From: Actinomycetota bacterium
Lineage (GTDB): Bacteria; Actinomycetota; CADDZG01; WHSQ01
DNA: 47,880 nucleotides
NCBI GenBank assembly: GCA_009379915.1
Contig: WHSV01000019.1
Coordinates: 1-47,880 of the forward strand
Direction: 5' to 3'
Of the stretch, positions 3,330 to 37,183 are shown in pieces; positions within the stretch are counted from its first letter, which is position 1; each line of letters opens with the position of its first letter. Both the position numbers and the translations under genes were made by a program. The notes under the pieces are model-generated. The model made no database searches. It saw only the letters and a program-made list of their open reading frames with translations, and was not told where the DNA came from.

Positions 3330-3673
3330 TATCCGGCGGGTTCCGATGCGCGGTCCGTTGTTCCTGCGGTCCCGCCCGAGCCGGCCCCGCGCTGTTCCTG
3401 CGGTCCCGCCGAGCCGGCCCCGCGCTGTTCCTGCGGTCCCGCCGAGCCGGCCCCGCGCTGTTCCTGCGGTCCCGCCGAGCCGGCCCCGCGGGTGATCGAA
3501 TCAGACGAGCCACACCACCGGCACACGACCTTCTCGATGTTGCTGTCGAGGACTTCTTCCTCCTCGACGTCGAGCCGGCCCCCCAGTGAATAGTGGTGAA
3601 ACGCGCGCACGCGTTTCGTCTCGAAGATGTCGAAGCGGGTCTTGTTGCCGCACGCGTTGCAGCGATAGCTCAT
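3329..3673 (-). CDS. small zinc-ribbon protein with repetitive tail
   Basis: 114-residue protein. Residues 1-60 hold two CxxC pairs (Cys5/Cys8 and Cys51/Cys54), so it should bind one zinc; the core looks like a conserved small zinc ribbon of unknown role. From residue 62 onward it is entirely the 11-residue repeat GAGSAGPQEQR, encoded by the 33-bp array at 3361-3490. One array unit has an extra C, so the last repeat is read in another frame (GAGSGGTAGT). The tail therefore looks like an acquired addition. The start overlaps the phosphatase stop by 4 nt, and the stop overlaps the next start by 1 nt. Confidence 0.7.
   Translation of the reverse strand: MSYRCNACGNKTRFDIFETKRVRAFHHYSLGGRLDVEEEEVLDSNIEKVVCRWCGSSDSITRGAGSAGPQEQRGAGSAGPQEQRGAGSAGPQEQRGAGSGGTAGTTDRASEPAG
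3361..3490. repeat. 33-bp tandem repeat array 1 (3.9 copies)
   Basis: Units run 3361-3394 (34 bp, one extra C), 3395-3427, 3428-3460 and 3461-3490 (partial). Copies 2-4 are identical over their shared length. The minus strand encodes GAGSAGPQEQR inside the zinc-ribbon gene. The last copy, up to the CCCCGCGG end, is nearly the same as sequences at 12091-12117 and 18477-18503. Confidence 0.97.
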
Positions 3674-18392: not shown

Positions 18393-19555
18393 CGCGCACC
18401 CTCCTCAGCCTGCGGTCCGGCCGAGCCCGCCCCGCCTTGCTCCTGCGGTCCGGCCGAGCCCGCCCCGCCTTGCTCCTGCGGTCCGGCCGAGCCCGCCCCG
18501 CGGGCGACGGCTCGGGGCCGCCGCGACCGCTTGACCTTCGCCGGGGTCAGGTCGTGTCGGAAGCGGACGATCGCGAACGAAAAGATGACGAGGCCCAGCA
18601 CCGCGAGCATCGTCAACGGGAACCAGAGGCCGGCGATCCCCTCGCCTCGCACCATCACCCCGCGCGAGATCTGAGTGAAGTAGGTCAGCGGCAGAAGGTA
18701 GGAAATCCAGCGGATGCTCGCCGCCATCGACGCGACCGGGAAGATCATTCCAGACAGCAGCACCTGTGGGAGCAGGGACATGAGCGCGAGCTGAATGGCT
18801 TGACCCTGGTTCTCGGACACGCTCGAGATCAACACGCCGAGCCCGAGCGTCACGAACAGGAAGAGCAGGGCGCCCAGACCGAGGAGCCACGCCGCGCCCT
18901 CGAAGGGAACGTCGAACAGCCAGGCTCCGACCCCGATGATGACCACGAGATCGATCGCCGCCACGAGGAAGTATGGGGCGACCTTGCCGACGAAAACGTC
19001 GCGCGGCCGAAACGGCATGACGGCGAGTTGCTCGAGCGTGCCCGACTGACGCTCGCGCACGACACCGAGGCTCGTGATCATGGTGCCTACGAAGATGAGG
19101 ATCATCCCTGCGATCGCAGGAACCATGATGGCCGAGGTGTCGAGGTCCTCGTTGAAGAGGATCTCCGGGTCGGGAGCTCCGGGATTCTCTTGGACCCCGG
19201 GGATCTGCGAGAGGGCGGTCAGCGCCGAGCGAGCCGAGAAGAGCTCGGTTCCGTCGATGAGGATGGCTGACCCACCGGGCCCGGAGACCAGCGCGACCGC
19301 GGCGTCGCCGTTCCGCAGTTGTTCCACCGCATCCGACCGGTCCCAGCTCTGATTGGACTCGGTGACGTGGAACAACTCGGGAAGCTGCTCACTGGCGTCC
19401 CCCGGGCCCGCGACCACGGTGGGGATCTCGTCCACGTCGAAGCTCGCCGCGTAGCCGAACACCACCAGCAACAGCAGGGGCATCACGATCATCATGGCGA
19501 GCGTGCGGTGATCCCGGCGCACCTGCCTGAATTCCTTGAGAACCAGCGCCCACAT
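18389..19555 (-). CDS. ABC-2 type exporter permease with repetitive C-terminal tail
   Basis: 388 residues: one N-terminal membrane helix (about 20-38), a large external domain (about 40-175) and five C-terminal helices (about 180-335), the topology of YbhR/YhhJ-like permeases. Exported substrate unknown; relatives export drugs or toxic ions. The last ~35 residues are repeats of GAGSAGPQEQG from the 33-bp array at 18411-18503, which is absent from typical family members. ATG 19555 is preceded by AAGGAGG. First gene of the operon permease-ATPase-ATPase-TetR. Confidence 0.9.
   Translation of the reverse strand: MWALVLKEFRQVRRDHRTLAMMIVMPLLLLVVFGYAASFDVDEIPTVVAGPGDASEQLPELFHVTESNQSWDRSDAVEQLRNGDAAVALVSGPGGSAILIDGTELFSARSALTALSQIPGVQENPGAPDPEILFNEDLDTSAIMVPAIAGMILIFVGTMITSLGVVRERQSGTLEQLAVMPFRPRDVFVGKVAPYFLVAAIDLVVIIGVGAWLFDVPFEGAAWLLGLGALLFLFVTLGLGVLISSVSENQGQAIQLALMSLLPQVLLSGMIFPVASMAASIRWISYLLPLTYFTQISRGVMVRGEGIAGLWFPLTMLAVLGLVIFSFAIVRFRHDLTPAKVKRSRRPRAVARGAGSAGPQEQGGAGSAGPQEQGGAGSAGPQAEEGAR
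18411..18503. repeat. 33-bp tandem repeat array 2 (2.8 copies)
   Basis: Units at 18411-18443, 18444-18476 and 18477-18503, identical over their shared length. The minus strand encodes GAGSAGPQEQG at the C-terminus of the permease, the same peptide as array 1. Beyond the last unit the sequence CCGTCGCCCGCGGGGC (minus strand) is shared with the intergenic element at 45609-45671. Confidence 0.97.
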
Positions 19556-26375: not shown

Positions 26376-28349
26376 ATGGCCGGCGTGAAGTCTTTCCTTC
26401 GAAGAGGTCACGTCATCATCGAGAGCGTCGAGCCCCAGGTCGACTGCGGCCGCTATCGCGCCAAGGCCATCGCCGGCGACGACGTTGATGTGGGCGCGGA
26501 CATCTACAGGGACGGGCCCTCGGTTCTCGCCGCCGCCGTGCGCTTCAGGGGTCCGGGCGACAAGAAATGGTCCGAGTACCGCATGACCCATGTCGACAAC
26601 GACCGGTGGGTTGGCTCGTTCACGCCGGACCGCATCGGTGACTGGGAGTTCGCGGTCGAGGCTTGGACCGACCGCTTCGCGACCTGGCGCCGCGACCTCG
26701 TCAAGCGGGTCGAGGTCGGACAGGACGTCGACGCCGAGCTGCTGGAGGGGGCCCAGATCCTGGAGGACCACCTGAAGGCCCTCCCGGCGGCCGAGCGGAA
26801 GAAGGTCAGGGAGACGATCGTCTCGATGCGGTTGCCCGCCCAAGAGTCGACATCCGGTTTTGAGGATCCCCGCATCAAGGCGGCGCTCGACAAAGGGACC
26901 GCCGAGCTCATGTCGAAGCACCACTCCCGGTCGGGCTCGACGGTGACGAAACCGGCCCTTCAACTGACCGTCGATCGCGAGCTGGCGCGCTTCGGCGCGT
27001 GGTACGAGTTCTTCCCGCGCTCGACTGGAAGGACGGGCGAGCACGGAACCTTCGACACCGCGGCCGAGGAGCTCGCGCGGATCGCGGGCATGGGTTTCGA
27101 CATCGTCTATCTGCCTCCCATCCACCCCATCGGCACCACCTTCCGCAAGGGGCCCAACAACACGCTCGATCCGGGCGAGGACGACGTCGGCGTCCCGTGG
27201 GCCATCGGCGGTCCCGACGGCGGGCACACTGCGATTCACCCCGACCTCGGCACCTTCGACGACTTCAAGCGGTTCACCAAGGAGACCGAGCGCCACGGGC
27301 TCGAGGTCGCACTCGACTTCGCCATCCAGTGCTCACCCGATCACCCCTGGGTCACGGAGCACCCGGAGTGGTTCGAGCACCGGACCGATGGCTCGATCCG
27401 CTACGCAGAGAACCCCCCGAAGAAGTACCAGGACATCTACCCGATCAACTTCGACACAGAGGACCGCGAGGGTCTGTGGACCGAGCTGAAGGGAATACTC
27501 GACTTCTGGATCGACGCCGGCGTGAAGATCTACCGCGTCGACAACCCGCACACCAAAGCGCTGCCGTTCTGGGAGTGGGCCATCGGTGCCATCAAGGCCG
27601 AGCACCCAGATGTCATCTTCCTGTCCGAGGCCTTCACGCGCCCGAAGGTCATGAAGGGCTTAGCCAAGCTCGGCTTCACCCAGAGCTACACCTACTTCAC
27701 CTGGCGCAACACGAAGGACGGGCTTACCGAGTACATGAGGGAGCTGGCCGGGACCGACATGGCGAAGTACTTCAGGCCCAACTTCTTCGCCAACACACCC
27801 GACATCCTGCACGAGTACCTGCAGACGGGGGGTCGGCCCGCGTTCAAGGTCCGTCTGGTCCTCGCGGCCCTTCTTTCTCCCGCCTACGGCATCTACTCCG
27901 GTTACGAGCTGGGTGAGAACACGCCGGTGGCGCCGGGCAGCGAGGAGTACCTCGGCTCCGAGAAGTACCAATTGGTGCAGCGCGACTACACCGCCGAGGG
28001 CAACCTCAACCGATTCATCACCCGCATCAACCGGATGCGCAAGGCGTATCCGGTCCTCCACCACCTCACGAACCTGACCTTCCACCAGGTGGACAAGCCG
28101 AACCTCATGGCGTTCTCGAAGTCCCTTGCCGGCGAGACGTCGATCCTCGTCGTTGTGAACCTCAACCCGTACCACTGGGAGGAGGGCATGCTGACACTCG
28201 ATCTCCACGCACTCGGGCTGGACTCATGGGCCACCTTCAAGGTCCACGACCTGATCTCGGACGAGACCTACGAGTGGCAGGGAGCGCAGGCGTACATACG
28301 TCTCGACCCGTTTAGCGAGCCGGCCCACGTCTTCAGGGTCCTGAGGTAG
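26376..28349 (+). CDS. glgE: alpha-1,4-glucan:maltose-1-phosphate maltosyltransferase GlgE
   Basis: 657-residue GH13_3 enzyme that transfers maltosyl units from maltose-1-phosphate to linear alpha-glucan. The N-terminal domain has VKRVEVGQDVDAELLEGA. The barrel carries YLPPIHPIGTTFRKG, DFAIQCSPDHPWV, the nucleophile near Asp389 (KIYRVDNPHTK) and the acid near Glu418 (FLSEAFTRP), close to Asp394/Glu423 of the M. tuberculosis enzyme. AGGAAGGAG lies very close to the ATG. First gene of the operon glgE-treS-mak-glgB. Confidence 0.96.
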   Translation: MAGVKSFLRRGHVIIESVEPQVDCGRYRAKAIAGDDVDVGADIYRDGPSVLAAAVRFRGPGDKKWSEYRMTHVDNDRWVGSFTPDRIGDWEFAVEAWTDRFATWRRDLVKRVEVGQDVDAELLEGAQILEDHLKALPAAERKKVRETIVSMRLPAQESTSGFEDPRIKAALDKGTAELMSKHHSRSGSTVTKPALQLTVDRELARFGAWYEFFPRSTGRTGEHGTFDTAAEELARIAGMGFDIVYLPPIHPIGTTFRKGPNNTLDPGEDDVGVPWAIGGPDGGHTAIHPDLGTFDDFKRFTKETERHGLEVALDFAIQCSPDHPWVTEHPEWFEHRTDGSIRYAENPPKKYQDIYPINFDTEDREGLWTELKGILDFWIDAGVKIYRVDNPHTKALPFWEWAIGAIKAEHPDVIFLSEAFTRPKVMKGLAKLGFTQSYTYFTWRNTKDGLTEYMRELAGTDMAKYFRPNFFANTPDILHEYLQTGGRPAFKVRLVLAALLSPAYGIYSGYELGENTPVAPGSEEYLGSEKYQLVQRDYTAEGNLNRFITRINRMRKAYPVLHHLTNLTFHQVDKPNLMAFSKSLAGETSILVVVNLNPYHWEEGMLTLDLHALGLDSWATFKVHDLISDETYEWQGAQAYIRLDPFSEPAHVFRVLR

Positions 28350-28352
28350 CGA

Positions 28353-30005
28353 GTGGAGAAGCTCAGGTCCGACCCTGAGTGGTACAAGACCGCGGTCTTC
28401 TATGAGGTCTACGTCCGCAGCTTCTTCGACAGCAACGCCGACGGATACGGCGACTTCAGGGGGCTCATCGAGAAACTCGACTACCTCGAGTGGCTGGGAA
28501 TCGACGTCATCTGGCTGCTGCCCTTCTATCAGTCGCCTCTGCGAGACGGCGGGTACGACATCAGCGACTTCTACTCGATCCTCCCCGAGTACGGAAACCT
28601 CAACGACTTCATGGAGTTCGTCGAGGAGGCGCACAAGGGCGGCATTCGTGTGATCGTCGACTTCGTGGTCAACCACACATCGGACGAGCACCCCTGGTTC
28701 CAGGAGGCCCGAAAGCCAGGCTCACCGAAACGGGACTGGTACGTCTGGAGCGACGACCCCGAGAAGTACTCGGACGCGCGAGTGATCTTCGTCGATACGG
28801 AGAAGTCCAACTGGACCTGGGACGATGATGCCGAGGCTTATTACTGGCACCGGTTCTTCGGCCACCAGCCGGATCTCAACTTCGACAACCTCGAGGTTCA
28901 GGAACAGGTGCTCGCCGCGCTGAAGTTCTGGCTCGACCTCGGTCTCGACGGTTTCAGGCTCGACGCGGTCCCCTACCTCTTCGAACGGGAGGGAACGAAC
29001 GGTGAGAACCTCCCGGAGACGCACGACTTCCTAAAGCGCGTTCGCAAGGAAGTGGACTCGAACTTCGAGGACATCGTGCTGCTCGCCGAGGCGAACCAAT
29101 GGCCCTCGGATGTCGTGCAGTACTTCGGTAACAACGGGGACGAGTGTCACATGGCGTTTCACTTCCCACTCATGCCCCGCATGTTCATGGCGGCGCGCAG
29201 GCAGGTTCGCTACCCCATCGTCGAGATCCTCGACCAGACTCCCAAGATCCCCGAGAACTGCCAGTGGGGAATCTTCCTGCGCAACCACGACGAGTTGACG
29301 CTCGAGATGGTGACCGACGAAGAGCGGGACTACATGTACAACGAGTACGCGAAGGATTCCCGCATGAAGCTGAACCTGGGGATTCGCAGACGTCTCGCTC
29401 CCCTGCTCGAGAACTCGCGTGACCAGTCCGAGCTCTTCCACGCAATGCTGCTCTCCCTGCCGGGCACGCCGATCGTCTACTACGGAGACGAGATCGGCAT
29501 GGGGGACAACGTCTACCTCGGAGACAGGGACGGTGTGAGGACCCCCATGCAGTGGAGCGGCGACCGCAATGCAGGGTTCTCCAGCGCCGACTTCGCCCAG
29601 CTCTACCTGCCGGTGCTTATGGACCCCATCTACGGGTACGCGGCCTGCAACGTGGAGGCCGAGCTGCGCAGCCCGCACTCGTTTCTGCACTGGTTCAGGC
29701 AGCTACTGGCGATCCGCAAGCAACACCCCGTGTTCGGGCTGGGCTCCTTCGAGGTGCTGCACCCGGACAATGCCGCGATACTTGCTTTCATAAGAAGGCA
29801 CGGAGAAGACGTGGTGCTGTGCGTGAACAATGTCTCTGGTAGGGCCCAGGCGGTCGAGCTTGACCTCTCACCGTACGAGGGCATGTACCCGGTCGAGTTG
29901 ATGGGCCGCGAACGTTTCCCCCGCATCGGAGAGCTCCCCTACCTGTTGACCATCCCGGCCCACGGCTTCTACTGGTTTCAATTGACGAACGAGGATTCGC
30001 AATGA
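28353..30005 (+). CDS. treS: trehalose synthase (maltose alpha-D-glucosyltransferase) TreS
   Basis: 550-residue GH13_16 enzyme interconverting trehalose and maltose. It shows the VVNHTSDEHPWFQEARK region, the nucleophile near Asp203 (GFRLDAVPYLF), LLAEANQWP with the acid, and FLRNHDELT. It supplies maltose to the maltokinase encoded next. A GTG start lies 3 bp after the glgE stop, and the stop overlaps the maltokinase ATG by 4 nt. Confidence 0.95.
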   Translation: MEKLRSDPEWYKTAVFYEVYVRSFFDSNADGYGDFRGLIEKLDYLEWLGIDVIWLLPFYQSPLRDGGYDISDFYSILPEYGNLNDFMEFVEEAHKGGIRVIVDFVVNHTSDEHPWFQEARKPGSPKRDWYVWSDDPEKYSDARVIFVDTEKSNWTWDDDAEAYYWHRFFGHQPDLNFDNLEVQEQVLAALKFWLDLGLDGFRLDAVPYLFEREGTNGENLPETHDFLKRVRKEVDSNFEDIVLLAEANQWPSDVVQYFGNNGDECHMAFHFPLMPRMFMAARRQVRYPIVEILDQTPKIPENCQWGIFLRNHDELTLEMVTDEERDYMYNEYAKDSRMKLNLGIRRRLAPLLENSRDQSELFHAMLLSLPGTPIVYYGDEIGMGDNVYLGDRDGVRTPMQWSGDRNAGFSSADFAQLYLPVLMDPIYGYAACNVEAELRSPHSFLHWFRQLLAIRKQHPVFGLGSFEVLHPDNAAILAFIRRHGEDVVLCVNNVSGRAQAVELDLSPYEGMYPVELMGRERFPRIGELPYLLTIPAHGFYWFQLTNEDSQ

Positions 30006-31441
30006 ACATCGACGTGCAGTCACTCGTAGAGCTCCTTCCCCAACAGCGTTGGTTCGGCTCCAAGGACCGCATGCTGCAGAGCATCGACGTCCGCGACCAT
30101 GCCGTACTCGACGAGAATCAAGAGGGCGGGGAATCCGTCGTTCTAGCGCTGCTCGACGTTGTATTCACAGATGGGGCGAACGCGATCTACCAGATGCCCC
30201 TGCTCGTGAACCAATCCGGCGGTGTGCGCGACGCTATGGATGACGTCGGCCGACTCAGCGTGTTCGGGCGGGCCCTGGCGCGCGGCGAGACCTACAAGGG
30301 GGACCATGGGGCCTTCCGTTTCGGCGGGCCCGGCCTCGACCCTCTGGCACCGCCCGGCCACGGGTCCGTCAGAGTCATGGGGGCCGAGCAGTCCAACAGC
30401 TCGATCGTCCTGGACGATGCCGTCATCCTCAAGTTGATTCGCCGCGTCGAGGAGGGCGACAACCCGGAGCTCGAGCTGAATCGCTTCCTTACGAACGAGG
30501 GCTTCGAGTACATCCCCGCCCAGGTCGGCGAGATCTTCTACGAGGAGGAACACCCCGAGGGCGAGGGTGTCAACATCGACCTCGGCATCGCGCAACAATT
30601 CATCGGCGACGCCACCGAGGGCTGGAGCGAAGCGCTGAAGCACATCTCGGCTCTGTACGACGGGATCTCGGGAGTCGAGGACGCCTCGACAAAGCGCCAG
30701 CAGGTCGAGTCCATGACCTCGACCCTGCTCGAGGAGCTTGCCGCACTCGGAGAGGTCACGGCCGGCCTGCACATCCTGTTCGGACGAGGCCAGGAACACG
30801 ATCCCCAAGTGGCGCGCGAGTCGGCGACGGCGCAGGACCTCTCGGACTGGGCGATGCACGCGCGCCACGCGCTTGCGGCGCTTCCGAGGCCCATCCCAGG
30901 GCTCACCGACGAGCTCGTCGGAGCCGTCGACAAGCGGCTGAATGCGATCGAGGACCTCGATGATGTGGGGGCCAAGACGAGGATCCACGGCGACTATCAC
31001 CTCGGACAGGCGCTTCTCGGCCCCCGTGGGTGGCTGATCCTGGACTTCGAGGGTGAACCGCTCCGGTCGCTCGAGGAACGACGGTCTCTGCAGTCTCCGC
31101 TGCGCGACGTCGCCGGAATGCTCAGGTCCTTCTCCTATGCCACCTACTCGGCGCTCTACGAACGCGCGGAACCCGAATCGGATCGCTGGCGTCAGCTCGT
31201 GCCGTGGGCCGAGACCTTCGAGGGGCTGGCGCGCGACTACTTCCTCCAGGCCTATCTCCGTACCAGCCACGAGGCCGACCTGCTGCCGCAAGACCGCGAC
31301 AACCTGCAGAGGTTGCTCGACTTCTTCGAGCTCGACAAGGCCCTCTACGAAGTCAACTACGAGATCGGGCACCGGCCCGATTGGGTTCGCATCCCACTGC
31401 GCGGAATCATCGACGTGATCAACAGGAGCGATACCGGATGA
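30002..31441 (+). CDS. mak: maltokinase (Pep2/Mak)
   Basis: 479-residue kinase that phosphorylates maltose with ATP to maltose-1-phosphate, the GlgE donor. The aminoglycoside-phosphotransferase-like C-terminal lobe carries RIHGDYHLGQALL (catalytic Asp) and LILDFEGEP (metal-binding DFE). The N-terminus has PQQRWFGSKDR, typical of the family. It is separate from treS rather than fused. It overlaps treS and glgB by 4 nt on either side. Confidence 0.94.
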   Translation: MNIDVQSLVELLPQQRWFGSKDRMLQSIDVRDHAVLDENQEGGESVVLALLDVVFTDGANAIYQMPLLVNQSGGVRDAMDDVGRLSVFGRALARGETYKGDHGAFRFGGPGLDPLAPPGHGSVRVMGAEQSNSSIVLDDAVILKLIRRVEEGDNPELELNRFLTNEGFEYIPAQVGEIFYEEEHPEGEGVNIDLGIAQQFIGDATEGWSEALKHISALYDGISGVEDASTKRQQVESMTSTLLEELAALGEVTAGLHILFGRGQEHDPQVARESATAQDLSDWAMHARHALAALPRPIPGLTDELVGAVDKRLNAIEDLDDVGAKTRIHGDYHLGQALLGPRGWLILDFEGEPLRSLEERRSLQSPLRDVAGMLRSFSYATYSALYERAEPESDRWRQLVPWAETFEGLARDYFLQAYLRTSHEADLLPQDRDNLQRLLDFFELDKALYEVNYEIGHRPDWVRIPLRGIIDVINRSDTG

Positions 31442-33336
31442 CCGCCGAACCGCAGGCTCCGGCCTGGCTCGGAGACATCGACCTCTATCTGCTCGGAGAG
31501 GGCAAGCACAGACGGCTCTTCGAAAAGCTCGGGGCTCACCGCATGACCCACGAAGGAACCGACGGGGTCAGCTTTGCGGTCTGGGCTCCTGCCGCGCGCT
31601 CGGTGAGCGTGGTCGGCGACTTCAACTCGTGGAACGGCCGCGCCCACCCAATGCGCGTGCTCGGCGACTCGGGGGTCTGGCAGACCTTCGTTGCCGGCAT
31701 CGAGGACGGACAGAACTACAAATTCGAGATCGTCAACGCCGATGGCAATATCACGTTGAAGACCGACCCCTTCGCGTTCGCAACCGAGGTGCCTCCAGAC
31801 ACGGCCTCGAAGATCTACACCCCCGGCTACGAGTTCGGCGACGGAGACTGGATGACGCAGCGGGCCGCGGCCCATCCCTATTCGAGTCCCATGTCCGTCT
31901 ACGAGGTCCACCTCGGTTCCTGGCGGCACGACGCCGGGGGCGCGTCTCTCAACTACCGCGAGGCCGGGGATCAGCTCGCGCGCTACTGCAACGAGATGGG
32001 CTTCACTCACGTCGAGTTCCTGCCGCTGGCCGAGCACCCCTTCGGCGGTTCGTGGGGTTACCAGGTGAGCCACTACTTCGCGCCTACGTCTCGCTTCGGC
32101 ACCCCCGACGACTTCAAGTACATGATCGATACACTGCACCGGGCGGGCATCGGCGTACTCGTCGACTGGGTTCCCGCCCACTTCCCGCGCGACGAATTCG
32201 CTCTAGCGCGCTTCGACGGCACCGCGCTCTACGAGCATCTCGACCCGAGGCAGGGCACCCACCCCGATTGGGGGACTCTGATCTTCAACTACGGTCGAAC
32301 CGAGGTCCGCAACTTCCTCATCTCGAACGCGCTTTACTGGATCGAGGAGTTCCACATCGATGGACTGCGGGTCGACGCGGTCGCCTCGATGCTCTACCTC
32401 GACTACTCCCGCGAGGAGGGCGACTGGGTTCCCAACCGGTTCGGGGGCCGCGAGAACCTCGAGGCGATCGATTTTCTCAAGGAGCTGAACACCGTCGTCC
32501 ACGGTGAGCACCCCGGCGTGATGATGATCGCCGAGGAATCGACCGCGTGGCCTGGCGTCAGTCGTCCGATCTACGTGGGCGGCCTCGGTTTCGGCTTCAA
32601 GTGGAACATGGGCTGGATGCACGACACGCTCGACTACTTCAAGCACGACCCCATTCATCGCAGATACCACCACAACCAGCTGACTTTCTCGCTCATGTAC
32701 GCGTTCAGCGAAAACTTCGTGCTCCCGCTGAGCCACGACGAGGTCGTCCACGGCAAGGGATCGCTGCTCAACAAGATGTCCGGTGATCCGTGGCGCAAGT
32801 TCGCCAACCTGCGCTCGCTATACGCCTATATGTGGGCGCATCCCGGAAAGAAGCTGCTCTTCATGGGAGGCGAGATCGCCCAGTACAGCGAGTGGAACCA
32901 CGATGCCCAGCTCGACTGGCCCACGCTCCAGGACGACCGCCACGCGGGTGTCCAGCGCCTCATGGCCGACATCAACCGCGTCTACGGGGACTGCCCCTCT
33001 CTATGGGAGGTGGACGACGAACCCGACGGGTTCCAATGGATCGACGCCAACGACGCGGACAACAACGTGATCTCGTTCTTCAGAGCCAACCAGGGTCGCT
33101 CCGAGCACCTGGTCTGCATCGCCAACCTGTCTCCGATACCTCGCTACAACTTCCGCGTCGGATTGCCCACGAAGGGTGAGTACACCGAGGTGCTGAACAC
33201 GGACTCCGAGAGCTACGGCGGCAGCAACGTCGGCAACCTCGGCGTGGTGGAGGCCGAGCCGGTGCCGTGGCACGGACTCAACCATTCGGCGATGGTCGCG
33301 CTCCCCCCGCTGGCGGTTCTCTGGCTGCGCGCCTAG
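31438..33336 (+). CDS. glgB: 1,4-alpha-glucan branching enzyme GlgB
   Basis: 632-residue GH13_9 enzyme introducing alpha-1,6 branches. A CBM48 domain (about 30-130) has SFAVWAPAARSVSVVGDFN. The barrel carries DWVPAHFPRDEFAL, the nucleophile near Asp313 (GLRVDAVASMLYLDYSR), the acid near Glu366 (MIAEEST) and LPLSHDEVVHGKGSL. ATG 31438 overlaps the maltokinase stop; longer upstream frames are shadow. Last gene of the operon, followed by a clear terminator. Confidence 0.96.
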   Translation: MTAEPQAPAWLGDIDLYLLGEGKHRRLFEKLGAHRMTHEGTDGVSFAVWAPAARSVSVVGDFNSWNGRAHPMRVLGDSGVWQTFVAGIEDGQNYKFEIVNADGNITLKTDPFAFATEVPPDTASKIYTPGYEFGDGDWMTQRAAAHPYSSPMSVYEVHLGSWRHDAGGASLNYREAGDQLARYCNEMGFTHVEFLPLAEHPFGGSWGYQVSHYFAPTSRFGTPDDFKYMIDTLHRAGIGVLVDWVPAHFPRDEFALARFDGTALYEHLDPRQGTHPDWGTLIFNYGRTEVRNFLISNALYWIEEFHIDGLRVDAVASMLYLDYSREEGDWVPNRFGGRENLEAIDFLKELNTVVHGEHPGVMMIAEESTAWPGVSRPIYVGGLGFGFKWNMGWMHDTLDYFKHDPIHRRYHHNQLTFSLMYAFSENFVLPLSHDEVVHGKGSLLNKMSGDPWRKFANLRSLYAYMWAHPGKKLLFMGGEIAQYSEWNHDAQLDWPTLQDDRHAGVQRLMADINRVYGDCPSLWEVDDEPDGFQWIDANDADNNVISFFRANQGRSEHLVCIANLSPIPRYNFRVGLPTKGEYTEVLNTDSESYGGSNVGNLGVVEAEPVPWHGLNHSAMVALPPLAVLWLRA

Positions 33337-35053: not shown

Positions 35054-36316
35054 TCAGCCGAGCTTGAACAGCTTGGACGCCTTCGCTTTGGCGGCCAGCG
35101 AGCCCCGGAGCCTCAATCGACGCCCGGCCAGCGACCTCACCGGATGGGTCCGTTCGACCGCGATCTTGGCCCATTCCGAGGTCGTCGTCTCGAGGGTCAG
35201 CGCGGGGGTTCCGGCAAGTCCCGGCTTCGCTTCGGCGTGTCCGTTCGTGACCACGATGTGCCAAGGATCGCCGTCGGTGAACCTCCATTCGATCGGGCCC
35301 TTCAGAGAACGCGCCACGTCCAGATCGATCGACTTGGTCATGCTGTCAAAGAGAATCTCGAGTGCTTCGCCGGTGGGTTCGGGCTCGCGCCTGTCGTCAC
35401 CGAGAATGCCCGCCTCGATCAACACCCACAGCCTCCGCGCCCTTTCCTCGTAGGGAAGCGATCGGTCCTCGCGCCGAAGAAGTGCCACCTCCTCCGGATC
35501 GATGCCCATTCGTCCGAGCTTCATCTCGAAGCTGCGGAGGCCGAACGCGTAGATCTCCTCGAGCGTGAAGCCGAAGGCCTCCGTGTAGTCACGATCGAAA
35601 TTCGGCGGGATGAACACTCCCACGGCCCACGGCAGCACTCGATCCCACAGCTCGATCGCGGCCGCACGGCATTCGTCCGAATCCCTGACGAGGTCGCCCA
35701 GGAAGGCGATTCCGAAAGCGACGTGTCTCGATTCGTCGCGCGCGACGTTGTTGATGCCCGCGAAGAAGCCCGGCAGCATGGCCTTTTCCTCGAGGTATCG
35801 CTGGATGAAGTGCTGGCCCGCTATGGCGAGCATTCCCTCGACCACGACGTGGTAGAGAGCGAGGCTCTGGGCCAGGAGCGCTTTGTCTGTGGGCCTTCGT
35901 CTCAGGGCGTTGGTAACGCGGTCGAGCTCGTCGAAGACCTGCCTGAACCCCCAGGTGAGATACGAATCGACGGCGCCGAGCGTCGAGGCCGTGTCGGTTC
36001 CCAGCCCTGCGACCTCTCGCACGAAACGGTCGAAGAAGACGTGATGACGCGCTTCGTCGACGATCTGGGTCGTCAGGAAAAGGCTTTCCGGAAAGCCCTC
36101 GGCCGCGTCGAGAACCGGCGTGAGGTCGCGCGCGACGGCCTCCTCCCCCACCAGGAAAAGCGAATAGTTCCAAAGCAGAGCGTCACGCTGCTTGTCGTCG
36201 AGTTTCTCGCGCCAGTCCACGATGTCGCGCGAGAAATCGATATCGGTTGCGCTCCAGCTGAAGCGCTCCCACTGCCGGTAGAGCTTCGCGTACGAAATAG
36301 ACTCCCGGCGTTCCAT
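35054..36316 (-). CDS. R2-like ligand-binding oxidase (R2lox) fused to an SCP2-like domain
   Basis: 420 residues. Residues 1-300 have the ferritin-like R2 fold with all metal ligands: Glu58 (VGEEAV), Glu88/His91 (DEARHH), Glu160 (VVVEGM) and Glu195/His198 (RDESRHV). Val61 and Tyr155 sit at the positions of Val71 and Tyr162, the pair forming the ether cross-link in M. tuberculosis R2lox (Rv0233), so this is R2lox rather than RNR R2. Residues about 310-415 resemble a sterol-carrier SCP2-type domain (SLKGPIEWRFTDGDPWHIVV, then PALTLETTTSEWAKI). The fusion suggests oxidation of a bound lipid, which is inference. ATG 36316 overlaps the TetR stop by one base (TGATG). Confidence 0.85.
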   Translation of the reverse strand: MERRESISYAKLYRQWERFSWSATDIDFSRDIVDWREKLDDKQRDALLWNYSLFLVGEEAVARDLTPVLDAAEGFPESLFLTTQIVDEARHHVFFDRFVREVAGLGTDTASTLGAVDSYLTWGFRQVFDELDRVTNALRRRPTDKALLAQSLALYHVVVEGMLAIAGQHFIQRYLEEKAMLPGFFAGINNVARDESRHVAFGIAFLGDLVRDSDECRAAAIELWDRVLPWAVGVFIPPNFDRDYTEAFGFTLEEIYAFGLRSFEMKLGRMGIDPEEVALLRREDRSLPYEERARRLWVLIEAGILGDDRREPEPTGEALEILFDSMTKSIDLDVARSLKGPIEWRFTDGDPWHIVVTNGHAEAKPGLAGTPALTLETTTSEWAKIAVERTHPVRSLAGRRLRLRGSLAAKAKASKLFKLG

Positions 36317-37146
36317 CACTTCGTCCACGAGGCAGCACCCTCCCGGCCAGATGCGGCGTAGCGTTCGAGTCCAACCCAGACGAGGGTCACGAGCTCCTCG
36401 ACGAGCTGAGCGCGCGGCGTCTCTGGGCTTCGGCGGAGCTTCGCTGCGCCTTGTCGAGCGAAAGGCTCGGAACCCCGCCCTCCGGGCGAGCGAGTCTCTG
36501 GGCTTCGGCGGAGCTTCGCTGCGCCTTGCCGAGCGAAAGGCTCGGAACCCCGCCCTCCGGGCGAGCGAGTCTCTGAGTGCTCCAACCACCATTCGCCGGC
36601 CATCTGAACGGCTCCAACGACCGCAAACGCAAGTGGTTCCGCGAAGTCCCCCCGCTCGTTGGGATGGGACTCGTCACCTCCGAGCAACTCGATGCGCGCC
36701 ACGGCGGCGACCTCCAGCGCCACATCGCGCACGAACGCGACGATCGCGTCGTGCACCTCGCGCTGCTCGGTCTGCGCCCGGTGGACGAGGAAACGGTAGA
36801 CCTGCGGCTCGCTCTCGAGCCACGAGAGATAGGTGTCGATGGTCAGCGCCAGCCGCTCCCTCGGAGCCGTCGCGCGCTCGAGCGAATCCACGATCTCGCT
36901 CATCAGGGCATGGGCGTAGCGTTCCGCGAGGGCCGTGTAGAGGCCGCCCTTGTCGCCGAAGTGGCGATAGAGGATGGGCTTGGTGATCCCCGCCTCGCTC
37001 GCGATGACGTCCATCGAAGCGGCCGGCCCGTCTCGACGGATGACGTTGTCCGCCGCGTCGAGCAACTCCATCCGGCGCTGGGCCCGGCGCACCTTGGAGT
37101 CCCGCATCCGTCCGGCCGAGCTCCCGGATCGTCCTCGTCCCTGCAT
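36316..37146 (-). CDS. TetR-family regulator with a duplicated insertion
   Basis: 276 residues. The helix-turn-helix is MDVIASEAGITKPILYRHFG. Normal ligand-domain helices run to WWLEHSE and resume at PRAQLVEELVTLVWVGLERY. Between them lie two copies of a 25-residue block (GGRGSEPFARQGAAKLRRSP and flanks) encoded at 36420-36569. Relatives are expected to lack this block. ATG 37146 is chosen because a TACGCT hexamer lies seven bases upstream of it (leaderless). The dyads over this promoter indicate autoregulation, and the R2lox gene is translationally coupled downstream. Confidence 0.88.
   Translation of the reverse strand: MQGRGRSGSSAGRMRDSKVRRAQRRMELLDAADNVIRRDGPAASMDVIASEAGITKPILYRHFGDKGGLYTALAERYAHALMSEIVDSLERATAPRERLALTIDTYLSWLESEPQVYRFLVHRAQTEQREVHDAIVAFVRDVALEVAAVARIELLGGDESHPNERGDFAEPLAFAVVGAVQMAGEWWLEHSETRSPGGRGSEPFARQGAAKLRRSPETRSPGGRGSEPFARQGAAKLRRSPETPRAQLVEELVTLVWVGLERYAASGREGAASWTK
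36420..36569. repeat. 75-bp tandem duplication inside a TetR gene
   Basis: Units 36420-36494 and 36495-36569 differ at one base (T/C). 75 bp keeps the reading frame (25 codons). Each unit contains a CGAGC-GAAAG-GCTCG hairpin (36455-36469 in the first copy) and a GCCC/GGGC dyad. A third unit starts at 36570 and breaks off after a few bases. Confidence 0.97.
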
Positions 37147-37183
37147 GTTACCGAGCGTAACCATTACTTCGAGTAACTGTCAA
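37147..37183 (-). promoter_or_regulatory. TetR/R2lox operon promoter with two operators
   Basis: Dyads GTTAC-CGAGC-GTAAC (37147-37161) and TTACT-TCG-AGTAA (37164-37176). On the minus strand a consensus -35 TTGACA (37183-37178) and -10 TACGCT (37159-37154) are 18 bp apart, and ATG 37146 follows 7 bases after the -10. The dyads overlap the core promoter, as expected for repression by the encoded TetR protein. Confidence 0.72.

Follow-up and report, generated by a model that had tools for sequence, protein, structure and literature searches.

An R2lox-like oxidase with a predicted C-terminal SCP2 domain in Actinomycetota

To our knowledge, which substrate R2lox uses physiologically has been an open question ever since the discovery of these proteins. 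The locus described here bears on it, and raises a question of its own: is an R2lox-type oxidase joined here to a lipid carrier, and does that carrier indicate what the oxidase works on? The window, by which we mean the whole stretch of 47,880 nucleotides that we analyzed (contig WHSV01000019.1, from an uncultured Actinomycetota bacterium), contains one reading frame that covers both parts:

35054..36316, minus strand: R2lox-SCP2 fusion gene, 420 aa (ORF, Pfam matches to RNR small chain and SCP2, AlphaFold)
35462..36316, minus strand: R2lox-like ferritin-fold oxidase domain, residues 1-285 (PDB sequence matches, fold match, residue mapping)
35057..35371, minus strand: SCP2 (sterol carrier protein 2-like) domain, residues ~316-420 (Pfam PF02036, predicted fold, Foldseek)

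The frame opens with an ATG at 36316, and its stop codon ends at 35054. Pfam matched Ribonuc_red_sm to residues 11-216 of the product (E 2.1e-16) and SCP2 (PF02036) to residues 332-418 (E 2.5e-6; 28.2 bits versus a cut-off of 21.3). The linker and first helix of the C-terminal part start at about 285-316, and the SCP2 domain extends to residue 418. When modeled with AlphaFold using an alignment of its relatives, the whole protein reached a pLDDT of 94.8 and a pTM of 0.91, the latter suggesting that the oxidase and SCP2 domains are docked in a fixed mutual position. The Pfam name of the N-terminal domain, RNR small chain, would fit a ribonucleotide reductase small subunit extended at its C-terminus by something unrelated. 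However, the nearest solved sequences are R2lox proteins (7qbk, 6qrz, 3ee4, 7qbp and 4hr0), as are the structures nearest to the full-length model in Foldseek (7qbp, 4ac8 and 5dcs). NCBIfam ranked five R2lox models above the RNR models, and the protein lies away from the NrdB-type rows in the tree. Tree, fold and sequence ranking thus rule out the reductase reading, which we regard as extremely improbable. Judged from its sequence and predicted structure, the protein is an R2lox-like oxidase with a genuine SCP2 domain at its C-terminus.

How closely does the oxidase domain follow the known enzymes? The roles of the functional residues of GkR2loxI have been assigned previously (PMC6060897, PMC6399176), and its alignment with the window protein bore out the claim of the initial annotation that every R2lox ligand is kept, together with the Val61/Tyr155 pair. 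All six metal ligands aligned one-to-one, at locally constant offset (E58=E69, E88=E102, H91=H105, E160=E167, E195=E202 and H198=H205), and so did the ether cross-link pair (V61=V72, Y155=Y162) and the tunnel residue (A164=A171). The sole published functional residue that differs is Tyr175, a second-sphere residue that hydrogen-bonds the site-1 water (PMC6060897, PMC6399176) and is not a formal family criterion; the window protein has Gln168 in its place. Gln168 is found in nearly the whole fusion clade, with Glu in three rows that have lost metal ligands, and Tyr is found in the classical R2lox clade. In the main fusion clade, none of the six ligands varies, and the equivalents of both V61 and Y155 are kept in 23 of the 28 SCP2-bearing tree rows, the Tyr being gone in a sub-clade of five. 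The window protein did not reach the cut-off of the curated NCBIfam R2lox models, its best score being 139.8 bits against the 315 required by NF006202. Because of the Gln at the Tyr175 position and these scores far under the cut-offs, we call the protein R2lox-like rather than plain R2lox, a member, by sequence, of a sister clade to classical R2lox. The label R2lox oxidase given at first therefore stands for the fold, the ligands and the cross-link pair; it goes too far as regards the clade, residue 168 and the family cut-offs.

SCP2 is a frequent add-on domain, and SCP2 domains bind many different lipids. The resemblance of the ~105-residue C-terminal region to SCP2, also proposed from the start, proved sound. 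Besides the Pfam match, which recurs in the relatives L012, L016, L019, L068, L074, L090 and L096, the C-terminal 138 residues modeled by themselves gave a pLDDT of 93.3. Foldseek aligned this predicted tail with alkylsulfatase C-termini (E 4e-7) and with human SCP-2 (6e-7) at a probability of 1.00, and the solved SCP2 relatives that it listed include ligand-bound members, for example 1ikt and 1pz4. Neither the R2lox proteins of the PDB nor 39 plasmid records carrying R2lox-like sequences had an SCP2 extension, in agreement with the view that known R2lox proteins are stand-alone; all 39 records covered less than 80% of the window protein. Two outcomes named beforehand as speaking against the fusion were a tail folding as something other than SCP2 and an SCP2 domain in already described R2lox proteins, and neither occurred. 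In the open-licence literature, which our search covered, we found no published description of an R2lox/SCP2 fusion.

The window derives from a draft genome of 158 contigs, a setting in which two neighboring genes could have been joined by chance or by an assembly artefact. Against this, the identical two-domain reading frame recurs in many independent assemblies, which rules the explanation out, and the dN/dS of the tail is well below 1; we consider such a joining vanishingly improbable. We found the fusion in about two dozen Actinomycetota genomes from five families. The window's own family accounts for at least 11 of them, and the others belong to families f3, f8, f31 and f40, likewise in Actinomycetota, with named Thermoleophilaceae MAGs among the carriers. 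Outside Actinomycetota, the search comprised one scan of genome contigs and the plasmid records. In each of two oxidase-domain trees, all 28 SCP2-bearing rows fell into one clade (96/90 and 97/88), with classical R2lox forming a separate clade. The tree neighbors of the fusion clade are short R2lox-like proteins, one of which (L002) is encoded in the window's own genome. A single gain of the SCP2 domain suffices to explain this tree; given that the most distant tails (L090, L095, L096 and L016) are only 13-16% identical to that of the window protein, the domain may also have been acquired repeatedly. On these sequence comparisons, the fusion is real and old, and its architecture is conserved. 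Two damaged copies were also seen, at L008 1501-2754 and L055 9662-10954, one with an in-frame TGA and the other split over three frames; each reflects either an assembly error or a decaying gene.

What surrounds the gene? In the window, the fusion is preceded by a regulator gene:

36316..37164, minus strand: TetR-family regulator gene (Pfam TetR_N and TetR_C_32)

The TGA of the TetR gene and the ATG of the fusion overlap by one base. From this arrangement, the two genes are likely co-transcribed, and the overlapping regulator would presumably control its own expression. A homologous TetR gene adjoins the fusion in L046 and L048, TetR genes lie next to or near further fusions (L036, L102 and L103), and in mycobacteria a TetR gene is found directly upstream of stand-alone R2lox. 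The TetR coding sequence of the window also carries, at 36419-36575, an in-frame 75-bp unit repeated 2.1 times in tandem (98% matches), which lengthens the protein by about 2 x 25 residues. The genome contains 27 matches to its 33-bp core at up to 3 mismatches, and the reversed control 0; the unit looks like a dispersed repeat element, and the repeat showed no exceptional RNA folding. Separately, 33-bp tandem repeats with similar units are present at two distant window sites (3359-3490 and 18409-18501).

Ten relatives (L038-L045, L047 and L055) have the fusion beside one or two conserved acyl-CoA dehydrogenase genes, located downstream and/or divergently upstream, and beyond these there are usually RNase D and NYN-domain genes. 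Acyl-CoA dehydrogenase genes flank the relatives only; around the window copy there are otherwise trehalose/glycogen genes and genes for a two-component system and a MacB-type transporter, with no ferredoxin or reductase gene recognized next to it. The window also holds a GlgE-type alpha-glucan cluster at 26376-33333, encoding GlgE, an alpha-amylase-family enzyme, a maltokinase-like protein and GlgB. Near classical R2lox there are genes for fatty-acyl-CoA ligase, for alcohol and aldehyde dehydrogenases and for ferredoxin, and on a Rhodococcus plasmid stand-alone R2lox is accompanied by genes for an alcohol dehydrogenase, a reductase and a ferredoxin.

On an M. avium plasmid, the two parts of the fusion are present as separate adjacent genes. 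The order there is acyl-CoA dehydrogenase, (IS element), TetR, R2lox, a 136-aa SCP2-family protein, acyl-CoA ligase and alcohol dehydrogenase, the SCP2-family protein being the 'hypothetical protein' at L116 4083-4493, directly after R2lox. Its profile match to the fused tail is weak (7.7% probability), and its SCP2 membership rests on its homologues. Another mycobacterium (L205) has the same SCP2-ligase-alcohol dehydrogenase cassette with no R2lox nearby. That a stand-alone R2lox adjoins a free SCP2 gene is not a general rule, as this was seen at only 1 of 22 R2lox loci. We therefore treat the adjacency in M. avium as no more than suggestive.

The presence of SCP2, together with acyl-CoA dehydrogenase genes beside the fusion in relatives, suggests that the substrate is of the long-chain acyl or alkyl class. 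On balance, and by sequence and model, we consider it probable, if not strongly so, that the protein activates O2 as a dimetal-carboxylate oxidase of R2lox type and is fed a long-chain acyl or alkyl lipid by its own SCP2 carrier. In this model, the SCP2 pocket would take up a long-chain acyl or alkyl molecule (a fatty acid, acyl-CoA, alcohol or alkane being the candidate cargo) from the membrane or cytosol and would present it to the hydrophobic tunnel running to a Mn/Fe (or Fe/Fe) center. There the lipid would be hydroxylated, desaturated or otherwise oxidized in a two-electron step. Because acyl-CoA dehydrogenase genes flank the fusion in relatives, the product would be expected to pass into acyl-CoA metabolism, and the overlapping TetR regulator probably senses a lipid or an acyl-CoA. 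The initial proposal that a fused lipid carrier points to the substrate class thus holds at the level of the long-chain class; which lipid is carried, its transfer from domain to domain, the type of reaction and the electron donor are what we infer beyond that level.

Published work bears on this model in both directions. A fatty acid is bound in the R2lox tunnel (PMC6399176, PMC6060897), and in stand-alone R2lox proteins it is bound with no SCP2 present (PMC6399176), which makes the domain unnecessary for access of the ligand; L002 and other short relatives in the same genomes likewise do without it. The SCP2 domain could then be a tether, an oligomerisation module or a membrane-docking module that places the oxidase in the cell without delivering its substrate, with the oxidase taking its substrate itself from the membrane or cytosol. 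However, solved relatives of the domain (1ikt, 1pz4) use the SCP2 fold to carry hydrophobic ligands, and the domain is kept throughout a deep clade, which makes such a purely accessory role unlikely in our judgment. The substrate, called unknown at the outset, has meanwhile gained a partial clue, as GkR2loxI lysates are reported to show modest alkane degradation; a metal-ligand mutant was only slightly less active (PMC10867098), and we consider this clue weak.

One branch of the fusions adds a further argument against the model. Five full-length fusions (L009, L010, L012, L085 and L086) form a single clade (100/99) in which Val or Ile replaces E58 and Cys or Thr replaces Y155, and three of the five have also lost H91; all retain E88, E160, E195 and H198. 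By the assignments of PMC6060897, the damage falls on site 1 and spares site 2. Both domains are under purifying selection (w ~0.06-0.2, the values for the more distant pairs being rough because their synonymous sites are almost saturated) and, as far as the contigs reveal it, these fusions hold the same operon slot as the intact copies of other genomes. The SCP2 domain persists despite the missing Mn-site ligand, and therefore the oxidase and lipid-carrier functions are separable. The sub-class may comprise mononuclear-iron enzymes or non-catalytic lipid carriers that have taken over that slot. Intact and ligand-loss paralogues are not obligately paired, since G009, a 95% complete genome, carries a ligand-loss copy only.

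These five proteins, with both domains conserved in an unchanged operon position, fit the idea that the protein is chiefly a regulated lipid binder or sensor. Its metal site would then make only the self-limiting Val-Tyr cross-link, as a structural or redox switch, with no external substrate, and cross-linking is indeed the best-established R2lox reaction (PMC6399176). Nevertheless, a one-time structural role explains the invariant ligand set of the main clade less well than catalysis does, and the alkane degradation reported for GkR2loxI (PMC10867098) also argues against it; we judge this idea improbable. A more specific form of the carrier-fed oxidase model, in which SCP2 hands a long-chain lipid straight to the R2lox-type metal center and the ligand-loss fusions are a derived sub-class, is tentative, and we hold it to be possible but rather doubtful.

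A natural lipid-carrier fusion kept across a deep clade indicates a substrate class for R2lox and makes the substrate question testable: any cargo of the SCP2 domain becomes a leading candidate for the substrate of an R2lox-type center. The fusion thus lends testable support to the idea that R2lox-type enzymes act on fatty-acid-like molecules, and the ligand-loss sub-clade offers a natural experiment to part lipid carriage from O2 chemistry.

Finally, we compared the window protein with known systems. The R2lox proteins of M. tuberculosis (3ee4/4ac8), G. kaustophilus (GkR2loxI, 4hr0), S. acidocaldarius (6qrz, 7qbk) and S. erythraea (7qbp) share with it the fold, the six metal ligands, the Val/Tyr pair, the tunnel Ala171 and the preceding Gly68, and mycobacterial R2lox also shares the adjoining TetR gene; identity to GkR2loxI is ~31% over the aligned part. 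Unlike these proteins, it has Gln168 for Tyr175, the ~105-residue C-terminal SCP2 domain and a sister-clade position. Its nearest relatives outside the fusion clade, the short R2lox-like proteins L002, L091 and L098-L100 from its own lineage and the Streptomyces plasmid protein L113, have a Gln168-type oxidase domain like that of the fusion. The short relatives terminate soon past residue ~300, with no SCP2 match where scanned, and L113 lacks both the Val and the Tyr of the cross-link. The tail (residues 283-420) has a predicted fold in common with SCP2 (PF02036) and with the SCP2-like domain of alkylsulfatases (PF14864; SdsA1, Pisa1), where it is likewise fused C-terminally to an enzyme working on alkyl chains. 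In the window protein, by contrast, the domain is attached to a dimetal oxidase and not to a sulfatase or to one of the other enzymes that carry SCP2, and it is 13-20% identical to those SCP2 relatives.
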